From positions 62,001 to 126,000 of the forward strand of contig JACPPC010000006.1 in assembly GCA_016191225.1 (NCBI GenBank): a DNA stretch of 64,000 bases, written 5' to 3'. The translations under genes and the position numbers were made by a program. Under the pieces are notes generated by a model that saw nothing but the letters and a program-made list of their open reading frames with translations, did no database searches and was not told the origin of the DNA. This DNA comes from Gemmatimonadota bacterium. Lineage in GTDB: Bacteria; Gemmatimonadota; Gemmatimonadetes; Gemmatimonadales; Gemmatimonadaceae. This document shows, in pieces, positions 19,786-29,730 of this stretch. The first letter of the stretch is position 1. Each line of letters starts with the position of its first letter.

Positions 19786-22700
19786 TCAACGCCCGGGGAG
19801 CCGGTACGCACGGCCGCGGAGTGCGACGAGCAGCACCGGGACGACGAACAACGTGACCGGCGTCGACAGGGCAAGGCCGCCGATCACCGCGAGGGCGAGC
19901 GGCTTCTGCAGCTCGCTCCCGGCGCCGACACCGAGGGCGAGGGGGAGCAGGCCGAACAGGGTGCAGAGCGTGGTCATCAGGATTGGCCGCAGGCGCACCC
20001 GCGCCGCCTCGCGAATGCCGGTCTCGAGGTCCACACCGTCCTGCAGCATTCGGTGCCGCGTGAAGTCGAGCAGGATGATCCCGTTCTTGACGATCAGCCC
20101 CACGAGGAGGATCAGTCCCATGAAGCTCGACACATTGAGGGCCGTGCTGGTGACGAGGAGGAGCGCCAGCGCTCCCACGAACGACACGGGGGCGGCGAGC
20201 AGGACCACCAGCGGCTCGGCGAAGGAGCGGAACTGCACCACCATTACCGCCATCACGCTCACCGCCGCGAGTGCCAGCACGAGGAGCAGGGCGCGGAACG
20301 CCGCCTGCTGGCCGGCGTAGCGGCCGCCGAGTTCCACGCGGATTCCCTCGGGGGCCGGTGTCGCGTCGAGGATCGCCTTCACATCCGCGATCACGTCGCC
20401 CAAGGGCCGCCCCTCGACCCCGGCCGTGAGGGCGAGCATCTGCTGCTGATTCTCGCGCAGGTGCTGGCTGCGCACCTCCGCCGGCGTGAAGTCGGCCAGC
20501 GCGGCGAGCGGCGTTGCCTGACGCGTGAGCGGCGAGTACACCGGCAGCGACCCGAGGCGCTGCGCGTCGAGGCGGATCGCGTCGGGGGCGCGCACCCGGA
20601 TGCCGATCGAGCGGTCGTCGAGGCGCACCTCGCCCGCGCGCACCCCCAGCAGCGCGCCCGCCACCGCCGCGCTCACCTGCCGCGCCGTGAGCCCCAGCCG
20701 GGCCGCTTCCCTCCCCCGCACACGCATCCCCAGTTCGGCACTCGGCTCCGCCACGCCGGCGAAGAAGTCGGTCAGCCCTGTGACCTTGCTCACCCTTGGC
20801 GCGAGGACGCCCGCGTACTGCTCCAGCCGGACGAGGTCGGCACCGAACAGCTTGAGTTCCATCGGCCGCGCCGCGCCCGACAGGTCGTCGAGCACGTCGG
20901 AGAGGATCTGGACGAACTCGACACGAACCCGCGGCAGGGCCGCCTGCACCTTGCCGCGCACCTCGGCCATGACCTCGAAGCTCGACCGGCGGCGGCGCGA
21001 CGGCGGCAGCAGGCGCACGGAGATATCGCCGCGATTCTGCGCGGTCGCGAACATGCCGAGCTCGGCGCCCGTGCGCCGCGATGTCCCCCGGACCTCCGGC
21101 GTCGCGGCGAGGATGCGCTCGATGACGTGGATCTGGCGATCGGTCTCGGCGAGCGCCGTGCCCCCCGGCGTCCAGTAGTCGAGAATGAACGAACCCTCGT
21201 CCATCTCGGGAAGGAACCCCGTTCCGACGAGCGCGTAGGCGCCGCCGCCGGCCACCGCCAGCGCCAGCGCGGTCGCCGCGACCCACCCCGTCCGGTGGAG
21301 CATCGCCTCGAGGGCGCGCACATACCGCGCCGCGAGCGCATCGAGCGCGGCCGACAGCCGCGCCAGCAGGCGCGGCCCCGCCGTGCGCGCGTTGCCGGCG
21401 GGTACCGTGAGGAACTGGTCGGCCATCAGCGGGATGATCGTGAGCGCGAGCGCCAGCGACACCAGCACGCTCACCGTCAGCGTCAGGGAGAGCGCGGCGA
21501 AGAACTGCCCCGACACCCCCTCGAGCAGGCCGAGCGGCAGGAACACCACCACCGTCGTCAGCGTGCTCGAGGTGACGGGCCAGAGCAGTTCCTGCAGCGC
21601 CTCGCGGATCGCCGCCGTGCGGTCGGCGGCGAGCGCGAGGTGCCGCACGATGTTCTCGGTGATCACCACCGCGTCGTCGATCACGAGGCCGGTCGCGATC
21701 GCCATCGCCCCGAGGGTCATCAGGTTGAACGTCTGCCCGAGGATGCGCATCAGGAACACGGTGACCGCGAGCGTGAGCGGAATCGCCGCCGCGCTGATGG
21801 CGGTGATCCGCAGGTGCCGCAGGAAGAGCAGCAGCACGAGCACGGCCAGCGCCGCGCCGACCAGCATCGCGTCCCGCACCGACGACACCGCGTCGCGCAC
21901 GAGCGCGGCCTGGTCGTACACCGGGGTGAGGCGGACCCCCGGCGGAAGCGCCGCTGCCAGCGACCTGGCCGCCTGCGCGACGCTGTCGCTGACCGCGACC
22001 GTGTTGCCGCCTACCTGCCGGGTGACGTTGATGAGCGCCGCGGGCCGGCCGTCGCCCGCCACGATCCGCACATGGTCCTCGGTGCCCGGCGTCACGGTCG
22101 CCAGGTCGCGCACTCGCAGCCCACCCCGCACCACGACGTCGGCCACGTCGGCCGCAGTGCGCGCCTCCTGTGCGGAGACGACCAGGTACTGCCGGTAGTC
22201 GCGCGAGACCCGGCCCACCGCGTCGACGGCAATTCCCTCGCGGATCGCGGAGGCGAGGGCGTCGTAGGTCAGCCCGGCCGCGGCCAGCCGCGAGGGGTCG
22301 GCCACGACCTCGATCTCGCGCACGTCCGTTCCCTGCACTCCCACGCGCCCCACGCCGGGAATGCGCGACAGCACGGGCTTGATCCGGTAGCGCGCGATGT
22401 CGTACAGGGTCGCCGCGTCGCCTCCCTCGAGGTTGTACGACAGGATCGGGAAGAGGCTCGGCGTCAGCCGCTCGATCTCGATGTCGAGGCCGGGCGGGAG
22501 GTCGCCGCGAATCTGCTCCACGCGCGTGCGGACCAGCTGCAGCGCGTAGTTCATCTCCGTCTGCTCGGCGAAGGAGATGTTCACCTCGCTTGCGCCGCGG
22601 ATCGAGCGGCTTCGAACCCGCACCACGCCGGGCACGATGCTCACCGCCTCCTCGATCGGCCGGGCAATCGCGAACACCACCTGCCGCGCCGCAAGGCTCG

Positions 22701-22884
22701 ACCCCTGCGCCACGATCGTGATCCGCGGAAAGGTCAGCTCGGGGTAGATCGCGCTGGGGAGCCGGAGCGCCGACCAGGCGCCGGCAATGCTCAGGAGCGC
22801 GACCGCGAGGTAGATGAACCGCCGCTGCGAGGCGAGGGCGTCGAACAGCGCCCATCCGCGGCGCACGGACGGGCCCCCCGTCAC
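19786..22884 (-). CDS. RND efflux transporter, inner-membrane permease
   Basis: A 1032-residue AcrB/CusA/Mdt-type pump subunit. It has the two-fold RND repeat: first helix RRFIYLAVALLSIAGAW, a periplasmic domain beginning LRLPSAIYPELTFPRI, the helix-4 acidic pair in GLVIDDAVVITENIV, and the second-half helices such as FMGLILLVGLIVKNGIILLDF. Length is as expected for the family. The GTG start overlaps the adaptor stop (GTGA). Substrate cannot be assigned; neighbours (PepSY, TCS) would fit metal or organic toxicant export. Confidence 0.94.
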   Translation of the reverse strand: MTGGPSVRRGWALFDALASQRRFIYLAVALLSIAGAWSALRLPSAIYPELTFPRITIVAQGSSLAARQVVFAIARPIEEAVSIVPGVVRVRSRSIRGASEVNISFAEQTEMNYALQLVRTRVEQIRGDLPPGLDIEIERLTPSLFPILSYNLEGGDAATLYDIARYRIKPVLSRIPGVGRVGVQGTDVREIEVVADPSRLAAAGLTYDALASAIREGIAVDAVGRVSRDYRQYLVVSAQEARTAADVADVVVRGGLRVRDLATVTPGTEDHVRIVAGDGRPAALINVTRQVGGNTVAVSDSVAQAARSLAAALPPGVRLTPVYDQAALVRDAVSSVRDAMLVGAALAVLVLLLFLRHLRITAISAAAIPLTLAVTVFLMRILGQTFNLMTLGAMAIATGLVIDDAVVITENIVRHLALAADRTAAIREALQELLWPVTSSTLTTVVVFLPLGLLEGVSGQFFAALSLTLTVSVLVSLALALTIIPLMADQFLTVPAGNARTAGPRLLARLSAALDALAARYVRALEAMLHRTGWVAATALALAVAGGGAYALVGTGFLPEMDEGSFILDYWTPGGTALAETDRQIHVIERILAATPEVRGTSRRTGAELGMFATAQNRGDISVRLLPPSRRRRSSFEVMAEVRGKVQAALPRVRVEFVQILSDVLDDLSGAARPMELKLFGADLVRLEQYAGVLAPRVSKVTGLTDFFAGVAEPSAELGMRVRGREAARLGLTARQVSAAVAGALLGVRAGEVRLDDRSIGIRVRAPDAIRLDAQRLGSLPVYSPLTRQATPLAALADFTPAEVRSQHLRENQQQMLALTAGVEGRPLGDVIADVKAILDATPAPEGIRVELGGRYAGQQAAFRALLLVLALAAVSVMAVMVVQFRSFAEPLVVLLAAPVSFVGALALLLVTSTALNVSSFMGLILLVGLIVKNGIILLDFTRHRMLQDGVDLETGIREAARVRLRPILMTTLCTLFGLLPLALGVGAGSELQKPLALAVIGGLALSTPVTLFVVPVLLVALRGRAYRLPGR

Positions 22885-23915
22885 GGCTTCCCCGACACGA
22901 CCCTGGTGCTGTCGTCCATGCCGTACGCACCCTTGGTGACCACGCGGTCTCCCGCCTTCACCCCCTCCGTGACCCAGGCGCCGCCGGCCGAGCGGCCGCC
23001 GATCTTTACCGCGGCGCCGTGCGCGACGCCGGCGGCGTCGACGACGAACACCTTGAACCCCTCCCCTGCGGGGACGAGCGCGTCGAGCGGCACCATCACC
23101 GCGCGGGAATGCATCGCGACCGCGATCCGCCCCGACAGCGCCTCGGCGATGCGCAGCGGCCGTATGGTCGAAACCACCGCCACGCGGACCGCCACCCCGC
23201 CGCTGGCGCTGTCCACCATTGACGCCACGCCGGCCACCTCGCCAAGGGCAACCGGCGCTGCGGCCTCGCCCGACCCAGGATAGAGCTGCACCAATTGTCC
23301 CACCTGTACGCGCGCCGCGTCGGTCGGTGACGTCGTCAGCACCACGTCGAGCGCGCGAAGGTCGGCAACCTCGACCAGCGGCTGGGCCGGGTCGGCACTC
23401 GCCCCAAGCACCGCGTTCATGCGCGTCACGGTCCCCGCGATTGGCGCCCGCAGCGTCGAGAGTTCGCGCGCCCGCCGAGCGTTGACGGCGTTCACGCGCG
23501 CCACCGCGAGCTCGGTGGCGGCCGCGTCGGCGTCCTTGCGCGGCAGCACCCCGGCCTCGGCCAGGCGTATCGCCCGCGCCGCCGCCCGTTCGGCGGCCGC
23601 CAGCGCGGCGTTGGCGCTCGCCGCCGCCGCCTCGAATGGCGCCTGCTCGAACTCCACCAGGGCGTCGCCGACGGCCACGGCCGCCCCCGCCACCACGAAC
23701 ACGCGCGACACCCGCGTCGGCGCCGGCGCCGCCAGCACCGCCACGTGCCCGGCACGGGGCGCGACGGTGCCCAGCGCGTCGACCAGTTCGTGAAAGACCT
23801 CGAGTCGAGCCTGCTCGACCGTGGCCGTCACCTCGGCGGCGGGCGAAGCCGGCTCGTCCGCGTGCCGGGAACAGGCGGCCGCGAACAGGAGGAGGAGGAG
23901 GGTGGCGCGGGTCAT
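22881..23915 (-). CDS. RND efflux periplasmic adaptor (membrane fusion protein), lipoprotein
   Basis: Links the RND pump to the TolC channel. The 344-residue protein has a lipoprotein signal (RATLLLLLFAAACS). The lipoyl/barrel-sandwich half-motifs (VLAAPAPTRVSRVFVVAGAAV and LSTLRAPIAGTVTRMNAVLGA) surround a coiled-coil hairpin very rich in Ala (ANAALAAAERAAARAIRLAE). A beta-barrel and membrane-proximal domain follow. It overlaps both neighbours by four bases, so pump, adaptor and channel are translationally coupled. Confidence 0.93.
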   Translation of the reverse strand: MTRATLLLLLFAAACSRHADEPASPAAEVTATVEQARLEVFHELVDALGTVAPRAGHVAVLAAPAPTRVSRVFVVAGAAVAVGDALVEFEQAPFEAAAASANAALAAAERAAARAIRLAEAGVLPRKDADAAATELAVARVNAVNARRARELSTLRAPIAGTVTRMNAVLGASADPAQPLVEVADLRALDVVLTTSPTDAARVQVGQLVQLYPGSGEAAAPVALGEVAGVASMVDSASGGVAVRVAVVSTIRPLRIAEALSGRIAVAMHSRAVMVPLDALVPAGEGFKVFVVDAAGVAHGAAVKIGGRSAGGAWVTEGVKAGDRVVTKGAYGMDDSTRVVSGKP

Positions 23916-25126
23916 GGCTCGGTCGGGTTCGCGGTGAGCGAGAGCAGCTTCACGAGGCCGGCCGCGTTGCGCGCCGCCGCCAGGTCGTCCAGATGCTGGG
24001 CCAGCGACCCGCGGGCGGTACGCTGCGCCTCGAGCACCGCCGGCAAGGCCGCCGCCCCCTCCTGATACGCGAGCAATGACAGCACGGCGACGCGATCCGC
24101 CGCCGCCACCAGTTGGCCGCTCCTCGCGGCCCGCACCCGCGCCACGACGAGCGCGCGCTGCGCCCGGGCCAGCGCCTGCGCCTGCTCGACGCGGGCCAGC
24201 GCGAGCGCGGCGGCCGACCGGTCGCGCTGCGCCGACGCCGCCGCGATCGCTCCCCGGTTCTGGTTGAGCAGCGGCAGGGGTAGGGCGAGCCCGATCGAGG
24301 GAAGCGTCCGGTTGCCCGTGCCGCCGGGATCGCGCGTCTCGTAGCCGATCGTGACTGACGGAGCCGGGAACAGGCGGCGCCGCTCCAGGGTGAGCGCGAG
24401 TTCGGCAGCGCGCGCGTTGGCGTCGGCGGCGGCCACCAGCAGCGGCGTCCCCGCCGCCGGCGGTCCGGGCGAGGGGGCCGCCTCGAGCGAGTCGGCCAAG
24501 GTAATCGTGGCCTCCGCCGACGTCCGGCCCATGATCGCCTGGAGGTTGAGCAGCGCGGTCGTCGCCTCGAGCGAGTCCGCCGCCGCCGAGTTCGCGACCT
24601 GGCCCGCACTCACGCCGGCGAGCTGCAGGTCGAGCTCGCTGGCATCGCCGGCCTCGCGCCGCACTCGGGCAAGGGCGAGCAGGCTGTCGGCGTCGCGCGC
24701 CGAGCGTGCCGAGTGGCGCGAACGCGCCGCGGCGACCAGCGCGCGGGTGTACGCCGTGTCCGCGTCATAGGCGACCGCCTCGCGCTCGAACGCATACCGG
24801 TGGCTGGCGGCGCGCAGCGCGGCATCCGCCGCCCCCACCCGCACGCTGCGCAGCCACGGCACGTTGAGCGGCACGTCGAGCGTGTAGTGCTCCCGCGGCA
24901 CGCTTTCGGTGCGCAGCAGGCCCAGCACGGGATTCTCGAACTGTCGCGCTACGCGCGCCAGCGCTAGGGCGGCGCCCGAGTCCGCGCGGGCGATCGCCAG
25001 GCGCGGCCCGCGCGCCAGCGCCGCCGCGACGGCGTCGGCGCGCGTCACGGCGGACACCTGCGCCCGCAGGCCCCGGGCCGCCGTCAGGGCGAACAGCCCG
25101 AGGGCGGCCAGCATCGCGGCGTGCAT
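23912..25126 (-). CDS. TolC-family outer-membrane efflux protein
   Basis: The outer-membrane channel of the efflux system, 404 residues. After a signal peptide (AAMLAALGLFALTAARGLRAQ) the protein has two long Ala/Arg-rich helical hairpins, each with the outer-membrane efflux protein pattern (RADAVAAALARGPRLAIARAD and the second-half RRLFPAPSVTIGYETRD, then GLALPLPLLNQNRGAIAAA). The NQNRG motif is typical of the family. The ATG start is 14 bases downstream of the YncE-like gene stop. Confidence 0.9.
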   Translation of the reverse strand: MHAAMLAALGLFALTAARGLRAQVSAVTRADAVAAALARGPRLAIARADSGAALALARVARQFENPVLGLLRTESVPREHYTLDVPLNVPWLRSVRVGAADAALRAASHRYAFEREAVAYDADTAYTRALVAAARSRHSARSARDADSLLALARVRREAGDASELDLQLAGVSAGQVANSAAADSLEATTALLNLQAIMGRTSAEATITLADSLEAAPSPGPPAAGTPLLVAAADANARAAELALTLERRRLFPAPSVTIGYETRDPGGTGNRTLPSIGLALPLPLLNQNRGAIAAASAQRDRSAAALALARVEQAQALARAQRALVVARVRAARSGQLVAAADRVAVLSLLAYQEGAAALPAVLEAQRTARGSLAQHLDDLAAARNAAGLVKLLSLTANPTEP

Positions 25127-26330: not shown

Positions 26331-26403
26331 TGACCCGGGAGGGGATCGAACCCTCGACCTACGGATTAAAAGTCCGCTGCTCTACCAACTGAGCTACCGG
26401 GTC
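26331..26403 (-). tRNA. tRNA-Lys (anticodon UUU)
   Basis: The minus strand reads GACCCGGTAGCTCAGTTGG..., with anticodon loop CTTTTAA (anticodon TTT), T-arm GAGGGTTCGATCCCCTC and acceptor end CCGGGTC plus discriminator A. The acceptor stem pairs over all seven bases. The CCA end is not encoded. It is an isolated single tRNA between the efflux block and the peptide locus. Confidence 0.97.
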
Positions 26404-26436: not shown

Positions 26437-26655
26437 AATATAACGATGGGCGCCGGCGCCTCGTCCGGCACCGGCGCGTTGACCCGATGTGTAGTATCCC
26501 CCAGGGCGCACTGTGGCGGGGCCGCAACAAGCGAGGCGCGAACGCTCCCTTTACGCTCGAAGAATCAACGACTTAGCTCCGGCATACGCTGGCCCGTGCC
26601 TTGCGGTACAAGGCCGCGGCGGAGCGTCCGCCGGGACCCAACTCAGGAGAGCCCG

Positions 26656-26748
26656 ATGAACACGACCAAGAAGCCCTTCGTCGCCCCGACGCTGAAGTCC
26701 GAAGCGTCGCTGACGGAGATCACGCTGTCCGCGGGCATACCTGGCTAA
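26656..26748 (+). CDS. RiPP precursor peptide, lasso-type leader, 30 aa
   Basis: This short gene is only visible inside a longer track ORF. The ATG has AGGAGA six bases upstream. The peptide contains the recognition motif FVAPTL (F-x-x-P-x-L, equivalent to Y-x-x-P-x-L bound by PqqD-like proteins in lasso clusters) and then SLTEITLSAGIPG. In lasso leaders the Thr just before the core is invariant; if that is T23, only about six residues (SAGIPG) remain, with no Asp or Glu to form a ring. It precedes a kinase, a PqqD protein and a B2 peptidase, which fixes its identity as substrate of that machinery. Confidence 0.78.
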   Translation: MNTTKKPFVAPTLKSEASLTEITLSAGIPG

Positions 26749-26790
26749 GGGCGGCGGATTGCGGCGCCAACGCGCCGCTTCATCGTGATG

Positions 26791-26824
26791 CGCGAACGCC
26801 AGCCCCTTCGGGCTGGCGTTCGTG
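26791..26824 (+). terminator. strong hairpin between precursor and biosynthetic genes
   Basis: CGAACGCCAGCCC and GGGCTGGCGTTCG form a perfect 13-bp stem with a 4-base loop, followed by TGCTTTCC. It lies 43 bases after the precursor stop and 26 bases before the kinase start. A partial terminator here would yield much precursor mRNA and little enzyme mRNA, as is common in peptide clusters. Confidence 0.75.
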
Positions 26825-26849
26825 CTTTCCGGCAATCAGTTTGCCCGCC

Positions 26850-27776
26850 ATGCCCCATGAGGTGAGTGTCCGCACCGCGCATGCCGGTCTCGCCTCGCTG
26901 TTGCGGGAGTGGCTCGACGACGCCCGGCTCGCCCTGCCACGGCCCGTCACGCTCGTGGTCGAGGTCGGTCCCCTCCCCCTTTCCCCGTCCGACTCGCGGG
27001 ACGTCTTCCGGCAGGGGAATGTCGCGATCCGCAGCGGCCCCCCCATCCACACCGTGTCGCTGGATTGGGAACCGCGGCTCGGGCGCGCCGTCCTCGCGCC
27101 GCAGTCGACCGCGGCCAACGTGATCATCACCGAGCAGGGCCTCCAGAGGGAGAACGAAATGCTGCGCTCCTTCCTGCTCAACGTCTGCATCCTGCTCGTG
27201 CGCCGCGTCGGCCTGCACCATGTGCACGCCGCGGCGCTCCGGGACCCGCACGGCCGAGGCTGGCTCCTCGCCGGAACGAGCGGGTCCGGCAAGTCCACCA
27301 CCACCGCCCTCTTCGCTCGTCACGGCTGGGGCATCGGCACCGACGACATCGCCTTCCTCGCCGAGGGAGCGGCGCCCCGGGTCACCGATGTCGTCTGCTG
27401 GCGGGAGCGCCTCGCGCTGCACGACGACGCCGTGGTGGCCGTGGGGCCCGACGGTGGAACGCCGCTCACCGCCCGCCGAAAGATGGGCTGGTTCCCGGAG
27501 GAGCTCGGCGCCGAGTGGCTCTCACGTATCACGCCGCAGGTGATCCTCTTCCCCGGTGCCGAGCATGGCGATACGACGTCGCTCACGCCGATCAAGGGCC
27601 GCGAGGCCGTGACGCGGCTGATGCGCTGGAGTCCATGGGTTGCCCTCGAGGCCGACTTCGCCGACGAGCACCTGCAGCGCCTCTCCCAGCTCGCCTCGCA
27701 GGCGCGGGCCTTCGAGGTCACGCTCGGTCGCGACCTGTTCGATTCCCCCGATCGCCTGCTCGAACTCGTGTCATGA
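26850..27776 (+). CDS. HPr-kinase-like peptide kinase (RiPP tailoring)
   Basis: A 308-residue protein with an N-terminal domain of about 110 residues and a C-terminal P-loop domain. The Walker A is LLAGTSGSGKSTTTALF, followed by HGWGIGTDDIAFL and RKMGWFPEELG, the pattern of HprK-related kinases found in lasso-peptide clusters. In the paeninodin system a homologue phosphorylates a serine of the precursor. Here the substrate is presumably the 30-residue peptide, which has serines at 15, 18 and 25. Start ATG 26850 is taken because the frame upstream runs through the precursor and terminator. The TGA overlaps the pqqD ATG. Confidence 0.85.
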   Translation: MPHEVSVRTAHAGLASLLREWLDDARLALPRPVTLVVEVGPLPLSPSDSRDVFRQGNVAIRSGPPIHTVSLDWEPRLGRAVLAPQSTAANVIITEQGLQRENEMLRSFLLNVCILLVRRVGLHHVHAAALRDPHGRGWLLAGTSGSGKSTTTALFARHGWGIGTDDIAFLAEGAAPRVTDVVCWRERLALHDDAVVAVGPDGGTPLTARRKMGWFPEELGAEWLSRITPQVILFPGAEHGDTTSLTPIKGREAVTRLMRWSPWVALEADFADEHLQRLSQLASQARAFEVTLGRDLFDSPDRLLELVS

Positions 27777-28045
27777 CGACCTGGTACTCGCGCCATCCGG
27801 ACCTTCGCCTCACCGCCGTCGACGGCGAGGGAGTCGTGCTGCACCTTGGCTCACGCCGATACTTTTCCGTCAACGAGACGGGGGTGACGATCCTCGAGGC
27901 CCTTGCGTCGCCGCAAACGCTCATCGACCTCACCGCCCGCGTGGCGGCCGAATACGACGTCACCGCCGCGGCCGCCGAGCGGAGCGTACGGGAGTTCCTG
28001 GACCGTTGCGTCGATGCGCACCTCGTCCGGGCGGAGGAACGCTAA
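27773..28045 (+). CDS. PqqD-family RiPP recognition element protein
   Basis: A stand-alone 90-residue PqqD-like protein (lasso B1 equivalent) that holds the leader peptide for the modifying enzymes. It has the three-strand start LTAVDGEGVVLHLGSRRYFSVNETGVTIL followed by helical segments ending EFLDRCVDAHLVRAEER. Length is typical. The start overlaps the kinase stop (ATGA). Its partner motif in the precursor is F-x-x-P-x-L. Confidence 0.9.
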   Translation: MTTWYSRHPDLRLTAVDGEGVVLHLGSRRYFSVNETGVTILEALASPQTLIDLTARVAAEYDVTAAAAERSVREFLDRCVDAHLVRAEER

Positions 28046-28089: not shown

Positions 28090-28545
28090 GTGGGCAGCAG
28101 TGGCGCGGGGGGTGCACGATTGTCGCCGGGATGGAAGGTACGGGCCGTGCTCGGTGCCCTCGTGCTCCCCCCCCTGCTTGGGCTGGTCTCGTTCGCGCGC
28201 ATCGAGCGCGCCATCCTCCTGGCCGCCCGCCTCCGCCCCGCGGCGCCCCTCGATGACGACGTTGCCGCCCGGCTCGTCGACGCCATCCTGCTGCGGCTCC
28301 CCGGGCCATGGGGCTGGACCTGCCTGCGCCGCGCAGCCGTGATCTACTTCCTGCTCCGGAGCGCCCGGCGCGATGCCGAGCTGTGCATCGGTGTGCGGCG
28401 TGCCCACGACGGCTCGCTGCGCGCCCACGCCTGGCTCCTTCGCGACGGCGCCCTGTATCTCGAGCCGGAGCGCTTCCGCGATGGCGCCGCCGGCTTCACG
28501 GTCATCGCGAGGTTCCCCTCCACCACCACGGCCCCCGCCCGCTAG
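28090..28545 (+). CDS. lasso-type B2 leader peptidase (transglutaminase-like)
   Basis: A 151-residue member of the B2 family (PF13471) that cuts the leader from the precursor. It starts with a hydrophobic segment (VRAVLGALVLPPLLGLVSFA), then the catalytic Cys in GPWGWTCLRRAAVIYFLLRS and the His in LRAHAWLLRDG. The start is uncertain: GTG 28090 or TTG 28120, the latter with a GGGGGG run seven bases upstream. A gap of 44 bases separates it from pqqD. Full catalytic residues suggest an active protease. Confidence 0.87.
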   Translation: MGSSGAGGARLSPGWKVRAVLGALVLPPLLGLVSFARIERAILLAARLRPAAPLDDDVAARLVDAILLRLPGPWGWTCLRRAAVIYFLLRSARRDAELCIGVRRAHDGSLRAHAWLLRDGALYLEPERFRDGAAGFTVIARFPSTTTAPAR

Positions 28546-28548
28546 CGC

Positions 28549-29730
28549 ATGGACGCGCTGCTCCACGGCCGGCTGCTCTGCGACACCCTGCGCCTCGGCG
28601 ACCTGGACGACGGCGAGCGCGCGCGCCTCGCGGCCCTCTGGCGGGACGCCGATCAGGGCGCGCTCGTCGCCTTGGCACTGCACGAGGGCGCGGAGCTGTG
28701 GCTGCAGCGGCGGCTCAAGGCCGCCGAGATCGCGCTGGCCGACGATGCCCGGGCCACCCTTGGCGCCGCGGCGACCCGTGTGCGCGCGGGGGTGATGCGG
28801 GCCGACGCCGCACTTGCCCGTGTGGCCGGCATCTTCGCCAGCGCCGGCGTGGAGATGGTGCCGCTCAAGTCGGCGGCGCTGCGCCGCCTCACCGGGCGGC
28901 TGCCGCTGGCGGATGCCCGTGGCGTCTCGGACGTGGACCTGCTCGTACCCGAGCTCGAGGCCGACCGGGCAAGCGTCGTGCTGCGCGGGCACCAGTTCGT
29001 GCCCCTGCAGGCCGAAGAATCGCGGCCGCCGGGCCACCATCACCGGGTTCCGCTCGCCGACGCGTGGGGCGTTGCTGTCGAACTGCACGAGAGCACGCAC
29101 CAGGCCGTGCGGCCGGCCGAGGCATGGCGCCGCGCGACCCATCGACCACAGCTCGCCTGGATCGATGGCCATCAACTGCAGCTCGCCTCCGACACCGAGC
29201 TCCTCTGGCATGCCCTGGTCCATGCCAATCGCGATGCTGGCGAACAGGCCCGCATCGGCCTGCGCCTGCGCTACTGGCTCGACGGCGCCGTGCTCGTGGC
29301 CGGCAGCGTGATCGACTGGTCCCTGATTCGTTCCCGCCTCGACGGCGGCGAGCTCGACTCGCCGGAACTGGCCCGCGCCTGGCTCTGGTGGGCGGCGAGC
29401 CTGGCCGGGCGGTCGCTTGGGTTCTCCGAGATCGGAATGGGCGAACTCGGCGCCCTGGACCTGCCGCGCCTCCTCGCCTGGCGGCTGCACGTCCTCGCCA
29501 GGCACTCCGCCGAGTCCCGCTGGCGCGAGAAGCTGCTCGAGGAGGGGGCGCGCGCCGAAGGCGGCCTGCCCCGTCGCGCCCGGAATCCCGGCGCATCGTT
29601 CGTCGCCGGGGCGCGCAGTGCCGCGGCGGCCCTTGCCGCGCGGGCCGCGCATGCGGCTTGGAAGGCGGGGCTGCGCGGGAGCGACGGCTTCACGCAGGAG
29701 TTCCCCGCCCCCACCACGCCGCCAACATGA
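28549..29730 (+). CDS. nucleotidyltransferase-family protein (NTP_transf_5-like)
   Basis: A 393-residue cytoplasmic protein. The centre has the polymerase-beta-like pattern MVPLKSAALRRLTGRLPLADARGVSDVDLLVP, where the two Asp of SDVDLLV would bind metal, and HALVHANRDAGEQARIGLRLRYW further on. These marks fit the uncharacterised NTP_transf_5 family found beside PqqD and B2 genes in lasso-like clusters. It starts three bases after the B2 stop. It may add a nucleotidyl or phospho-sugar group to the peptide, or act in its maturation; that is inference. Confidence 0.82.
   Translation: MDALLHGRLLCDTLRLGDLDDGERARLAALWRDADQGALVALALHEGAELWLQRRLKAAEIALADDARATLGAAATRVRAGVMRADAALARVAGIFASAGVEMVPLKSAALRRLTGRLPLADARGVSDVDLLVPELEADRASVVLRGHQFVPLQAEESRPPGHHHRVPLADAWGVAVELHESTHQAVRPAEAWRRATHRPQLAWIDGHQLQLASDTELLWHALVHANRDAGEQARIGLRLRYWLDGAVLVAGSVIDWSLIRSRLDGGELDSPELARAWLWWAASLAGRSLGFSEIGMGELGALDLPRLLAWRLHVLARHSAESRWREKLLEEGARAEGGLPRRARNPGASFVAGARSAAAALAARAAHAAWKAGLRGSDGFTQEFPAPTTPPT

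Follow-up and report, generated by a model that had tools for sequence, protein, structure and literature searches.

A putative linear phosphopeptide RiPP with a very short predicted core, encoded without an adjacent cyclase in Gemmatimonadota

The operon and its precursor gene

The window, the whole stretch of 64,000 nucleotides of Gemmatimonadota DNA that was analysed, carries an operon in which a very short precursor gene is followed by a stem-loop and by the genes for an HprK-like kinase, a PqqD-type RRE (B1), a B2 cysteine protease and a nucleotidyltransferase, in this order. The features are as follows.

26512..26526, plus strand: imperfect palindrome TGTGGC-GGG-GCCGCA at -144, candidate activator site
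26590..26605, plus strand: sigma-54-like promoter TGGCCCG-TGCC-TTGCG at -66, 10/12 consensus matches
26645-26649, plus strand: ribosome-binding site AGGAG, assigned from the sequence
26656 (ATG)-26748 (TAA), plus strand: precursor ORF of 30 residues, MNTTKKPFVAPTLKSEASLTEITLSAGIPG
26656..26727, plus strand: leader MNTTKKPFVAPTLKSEASLTEITL with F-17, P-14, L-12 and T-2, from an alignment of 12 precursors
26728..26748, plus strand: core SAGIPG with the stop codon; phosphorylation is predicted at Ser25 (core position 1)
26790..26825, plus strand: strong stem-loop of 16 bp separating precursor and kinase, perhaps an attenuator or the end of an mRNA
26850..27776, plus strand: HprK-like kinase, from a weak match to HprK-related kinase A, invariant motifs and a structural model
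27773..28045, plus strand: B1, discrete PqqD-type RRE (PF05402, 59 bits)
28090..28545, plus strand: B2, lasso-type cysteine leader peptidase (NF033537, 64 bits, cut-off 33; PF13471, 64 bits), start codon uncertain (GTG 28090 or TTG 28120)
28549..29730, plus strand: nucleotidyltransferase NTP_transf_5 (PF14907, 68 bits)

As the sequence of the kinase gives just sub-threshold HprK-related matches, motifs and a model were used to name it: the residues of the HxH, GKS and DD motifs are invariant in eight genomes, and the model (mean pLDDT 84) matches the fold of PEP carboxykinases, which is shared with HprK. The P-loop region is similar to that of the HPr-rel-A system kinase (TIGR04352), but the score of 34 bits is far under the cut-off of 200 and membership of that system was rejected. 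The best NCBIfam matches of B1 are the lasso PqqD families, under cut-off, and the Cys and His of B2 are conserved in the eight genomes, as are Lys107, Asp128 and Asp130 of the nucleotidyltransferase. The model of the latter (mean pLDDT 89) weakly matches a nucleotidyltransferase-like protein and aminoglycoside and lincosamide nucleotidyltransferases, with no fold match at E<=0.001 and no sequence match in the PDB.

A tRNA-Lys(TTT) gene (26331-26403, minus strand) lies just upstream of the operon, and a near-identical stretch is found upstream in the congener G001 with another gene in between. Further upstream, an RND efflux set of AcrB-type pump, membrane-fusion protein and outer-membrane channel (19786-25126, minus strand) is divergently oriented; no counterpart was seen upstream of the G001 operon, and no tie to the peptide is claimed. 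A dedicated exporter is not found adjacent to the window operon.

The precursor ends in ITL-SAGIPG. Its residues F8, P11, L13 and T23 sit at the offsets -17, -14, -12 and -2 described for lasso leaders (PMC10368454), with T23 lying 15 residues past F8 as does T(-2) past Y(-17), and the predicted core is therefore the hexapeptide SAGIPG. ORF and leader spacing thereby confirm the initial annotation, which had noted that just these residues, none of them Asp or Glu, remain after the leader Thr. Its reading of the two other frames was likewise correct: the -1 frame reads GHTWLRAADCGAN, with Gly1 and Asp9 in lasso spacing, and runs on without a stop into the kinase (ORF 26601-27776); in the +1 frame a TGA stop (26786-26788) comes right ahead of the stem-loop. 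Across the 12 aligned precursors F8, E16, A17, L19 and T23 are invariant and the leader consensus is FVAPxLxEEAxLxxLTL. The leader profile (A2), of whose 12 rows the window ORF is itself one, matches this ORF at E=8e-14 and also recovers clear relatives from further genera.

Conservation, spread and regulation in relatives

In G001 the same place is taken by MQAQTKKPFVAPTLKNEASLTEITLSGNGIQL, which ends in KPFVAPTLKNEASLTEITL followed by SGNGIQL and the stop, and in G412, which belongs to another genus of the window's family, by MTKKPFVEPTLKIEASLTEITLSTII, which ends in EASLTEITL followed by STII and the stop. The precursors of the relatives are thus equally short (26-35 residues) and occupy the same slot in the same operon. 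Of the 22 codons in the leader block shared by window and G001, seven show silent differences and one a residue replacement (pS 0.39, pN 0.04); frame 0 of the precursor is under purifying selection. Because of this excess of silent over replacement change and the matches of the leader profile, the window ORF can be taken not to be a chance ORF. Since the genes downstream of the operon (VKOR, SDR and RNase HII, read from ORFs) are the same in window and G001, the operon was probably inherited in place.

The initial annotation had considered a real short product alongside a truncated gene, a sequencing error and a programmed frameshift, and had looked to conserved short precursors with identical ends for a decision. 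The short form is indeed conserved, but the ends differ between species, as expected of RiPP cores. The orthologous short precursors in the same operon slot argue, on sequence comparison, that the gene of 30 residues encodes a true, conserved precursor whose core has about six residues. That it is instead a lasso precursor cut short by a mutation or an error in sequencing, or the source of a GHTWLRAAD... core by programmed -1 frameshift, is extremely improbable, even if the -1 frame extends uninterrupted into the kinase and coincidentally shows the Gly1/Asp9 spacing. Truncation, sequencing error and frameshift are all rejected, as G001 and G412 share the short form, frame 0 is under purifying selection, and the -1 frame stops in G001 and is less conserved there (identity 14/21 vs 20/21 in frame 0); a local cyclase, moreover, is missing.

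With respect to spread, the close kinase subfamily (kinase profile A1) occurs in 8 genomes in a class sample of 394, and leader profile A2, used instead of a simple motif search that missed precursors, finds precursors in seven of these; in the eighth, G373, the contig starts at the kinase, hence the missing match. In the phylum sample the leader profile finds further precursors in G412 and G418. Weaker ones, ending in LGGSL (G203), QLSGGGGL (G221) and ISGGF (G296), come from a third family. Other families of the order and class hold 1-8 precursors per genome; of the eight in G040, a tandem group of four precedes the kinase and the other four are dispersed across the chromosome, and G216 has three.

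In the set of 24 precursors from 12 genomes used for core statistics, the leader is conserved and the cores are variable, with a length of 4-40 residues (median 9; at most nine residues in 13/24). Asp or Glu is present at core position 7-9 in 7/24, of which four also have a core of at least 15 residues. Within the first six core residues, Ser is found in every one of the 24 precursors, whereas the Ser content of the enzymes would predict 6.0; one in 20,000 letter shuffles matched this count, a figure which is indicative only as paralogues are not independent. The three carrier species in the window's family all have this Ser at core position 1 (SAGIPG, SGNGIQL, STII); elsewhere it is at positions 2-6.

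Several relatives show gene contexts of their own. In G040, orphan short precursors lie directly before genes for secreted-looking amidohydrolases, far from the enzyme operon (L134:6552-8007, L135:5493-7056), and the amidohydrolase next to the L134 precursor was confirmed by PF01979. In G252 a gene for a copper amine oxidase separates the two short precursors from the kinase (L082:6679-8556). The precursor L083:1858-2058 of G170 has a 40-residue core of mostly Gly-His repeats, which suggests that the same enzymes make a metal-binding product there. In G004 (L040:11661-11853, minus strand), tandem 28-residue precursors, MKRTPWITPTLVSKPVSETLFVQDDVLS and one ending in FVQDAEQS, have six-residue cores ending in Ser and adjoin kinase, B1 and an Asn-synthase gene, such that a cyclase-like gene is present. 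In L137, L138 and L139 (G221, G203 and G296), which belong to another family of the class, the kinase and a precursor with a core of 5-8 residues precede a lipoprotein-like gene that matches no Pfam family; next come proteins whose repeats resemble YadA-type heads, and the gene order is shared by all three.

On the regulatory level, the sigma-54-like site is found exactly at -66 also in G001 (12/12) and G412 (9/12) and is thus common to all three operon-carrying species of the window's family; scores of at least 9 are reached at 0.06% of window positions, and RpoN is encoded in the window's genome. No sigma-70 promoter was found. Outside the family, sigma-54 sites are just suggestive in G252 and G192 and were seen nowhere else. 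The palindrome, located about 78 bases further upstream of the sigma-54-like site in window and G001, has a perfect counterpart in the latter (TGTGGC-GGT-GCCACA at -143), and a different palindrome is present in G412 at -100. The stem-loop is found at the same position with a near-identical stem in G001 and G412, in G412 with a compensated pair. A consensus intrinsic terminator was not called after the precursor, as the T tract is weak; the stem is nonetheless conserved and may favour precursor over enzyme transcripts.

The cyclase question and comparison with known systems

In the stretches examined around the window operon and the operons of close relatives no Asn-synthase gene is present, and in the whole assemblies of G216 (93% complete), G252 (93%), G373 (86%) and G418 (80%) no Asn-synthase-family protein was found at E<=1e-20. 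While these assemblies are incomplete, four independent gaps are unlikely. As a positive control, lasso-like clusters of the same family (G034, G014) have Asn-synthase genes adjoining longer precursors, in which core position 9 is Asp.

A lasso or otherwise cyclised peptide could still arise through an Asn-synthase-like cyclase encoded elsewhere, as the window's genome encodes three full Asn-synthase-family proteins, all on other contigs, and the cores of some relatives have Asp or Glu at position 7-9. This is judged very unlikely, as the three proteins exceed the AsnB cut-off and reach 220-238 bits against a lasso-cyclase cut-off of 525, four carriers lack the protein family altogether, and a ring of 7-9 residues is impossible from a six- or four-residue core. 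With cyclase and ring acid both failing, the window peptide is not a lasso peptide, and the lasso framing implied by the initial annotation does not hold.

With the phosphorylated lasso peptides paeninodin, pseudomycoidin and Bsf the system shares kinase, B1, B2 and leader spacing, and with pseudomycoidin and bsf also the nucleotidyltransferase. The leader retains YxxPxL (-17 to -12), with Phe for Tyr, and Thr at -2, such that binding by the RRE is predicted, and B2 is a transglutaminase-like leader peptidase that scores well above its curated cut-off. In contrast to these lasso peptides, there is no cyclase C in the cluster, SAGIPG, SGNGIQL and STII have neither the acidic residue at 7-9 nor a threadable length, being far shorter than lasso cores, and the predicted phospho-Ser is near the N-terminus, as in Bsf, and not at the C-terminus.

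The closest known kind is the Linear Polyphosphorylated Peptides (LPP) of Paenibacillus alginolyticus (lpp; PMC13381572, 2026), a kind which likewise combines a discrete lasso-type RRE, an HprK-like kinase and an NTP transferase without a macrolactam cyclase, has a conserved leader, a variable core and a Ser near the core N-terminus (phosphorylation being predicted for the cores analysed here), and some operons of which, as in some of the carriers here, adjoin polysaccharide genes. The differences are considerable: LPP is from Bacillota, not Gemmatimonadota; it uses a SipW-like (SpI) peptidase, none of which was found among the operon proteins and flanking genes scanned, B2 being in its place; it has an MsbA-like transporter, whereas the window operon has no adjacent one and an MsbA-like ABC exporter follows the B1-B2-N genes in G216 only; its leader motif is YxxPxVLxHQxIxFETxxS as opposed to FVAPTL...EASLTEITL; and its core has about 45 residues, compared to 4-12 in most members here. 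Because SipW-like peptidase, transporter and LPP leader motif are missing from the cluster, it is not filed as LPP, although the working principle is, by analogy, that of LPP. In the open-access papers searched, no description of such a system was found, and judged by its genes it is here called a putative B2-dependent, ultra-short-core linear phosphopeptide RiPP of Gemmatimonadota.

A predicted linear phosphopeptide and its alternatives

By analogy to these systems, the most likely product is a very small linear phosphopeptide and not a defective lasso peptide. In the route considered probable, the discrete RRE B1 would bind the leader, the HprK-like kinase would phosphorylate the conserved core Ser (Ser25), the nucleotidyltransferase would probably add a sugar or nucleotidyl group to that phosphate, and B2 would cut after Leu24 to free a short linear phosphopeptide. 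No macrolactam cyclase would take part, and the missing Asp/Glu is expected for this reason. Kinase, B1, B2 and nucleotidyltransferase are encoded together with conserved catalytic residues in eight genomes, which supports the scheme. The short form, the conserved leader, the operon, the lack of a neighbouring cyclase and the Ser in every core are established by comparison. Phosphorylation, decoration, order of the steps and exact cleavage site are deduced from studied relatives: in Bsf, B1 binds the leader and aids the kinase, which phosphorylates core Ser3 on the precursor (PMC10368454); the N enzyme of pseudomycoidin decorates the phosphate with one or two hexoses (PMC8498205, reviewing Zyubko 2019); and in LPP a cyclase-less cluster yields linear Ser3-phosphorylated peptides (PMC13381572). 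Against the decoration analogy counts that LppN showed no activity in the heterologous LPP host (PMC13381572). The weakest link of the mechanism is the position of the Ser, as each of the kinases studied has a fixed target, Ser3 or the C-terminal Ser, in contrast to position 1 here and 2-6 elsewhere; the positional rule of the kinase must therefore differ from theirs. As a few cores of relatives are long (up to 40 residues), four of them with an acid at the ring position, products may be diverse.

Two other fates of the peptide were weighed. The core might be linked, via phosphate or sugar, to a polysaccharide or protein of the envelope instead of being freed as a diffusible product, since the operons of G040, G170 and G216 adjoin glycosyltransferase, epimerase, UDP-sugar dehydrogenase or Wzt/Wzm-type genes and LPP and paeninodin clusters are often located in capsule loci (PMC13381572); such genes, however, do not flank the operon in window or G001, which makes this fate unlikely. 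Alternatively, the kinase may act at another residue or the peptide be inert, and the precursor would then regulate the RRE-enzyme complex or act as its decoy. The very short, variable cores and the orphan precursors that G040 and G216 encode at a distance from the enzymes would fit, but the residues of B2, nucleotidyltransferase and kinase are intact in all carriers and the Ser is universal within otherwise variable cores, so that this is quite unlikely.

Returning to the linear phosphopeptide, the carriers may, as a tentative generalization put forward with less than even confidence, represent an undescribed RiPP family of Gemmatimonadota in which a lasso-type RRE, a kinase, a nucleotidyltransferase and B2 make linear phosphopeptides of 4-12 residues, with one enzyme set serving several scattered precursors in some genomes and with sigma-54 dependence in the window's family. 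Precursors of 26-35 residues with cores of 4-9 are under the usual limits of gene calling and lasso mining. In a published survey, peptidase and cyclase accompany only about half of the discrete lasso-type RREs (PMC7470986), and some of the remaining ones may be systems like this one. The compact five-gene set makes an HprK-like kinase and a poorly understood nucleotidyltransferase testable on a hexapeptide. Cumulatively, the idea of linear phosphopeptides (2026) would be extended beyond Bacillota and joined to the canonical B2 protease, and such a peptide may have a signalling role or be conjugated to the envelope.
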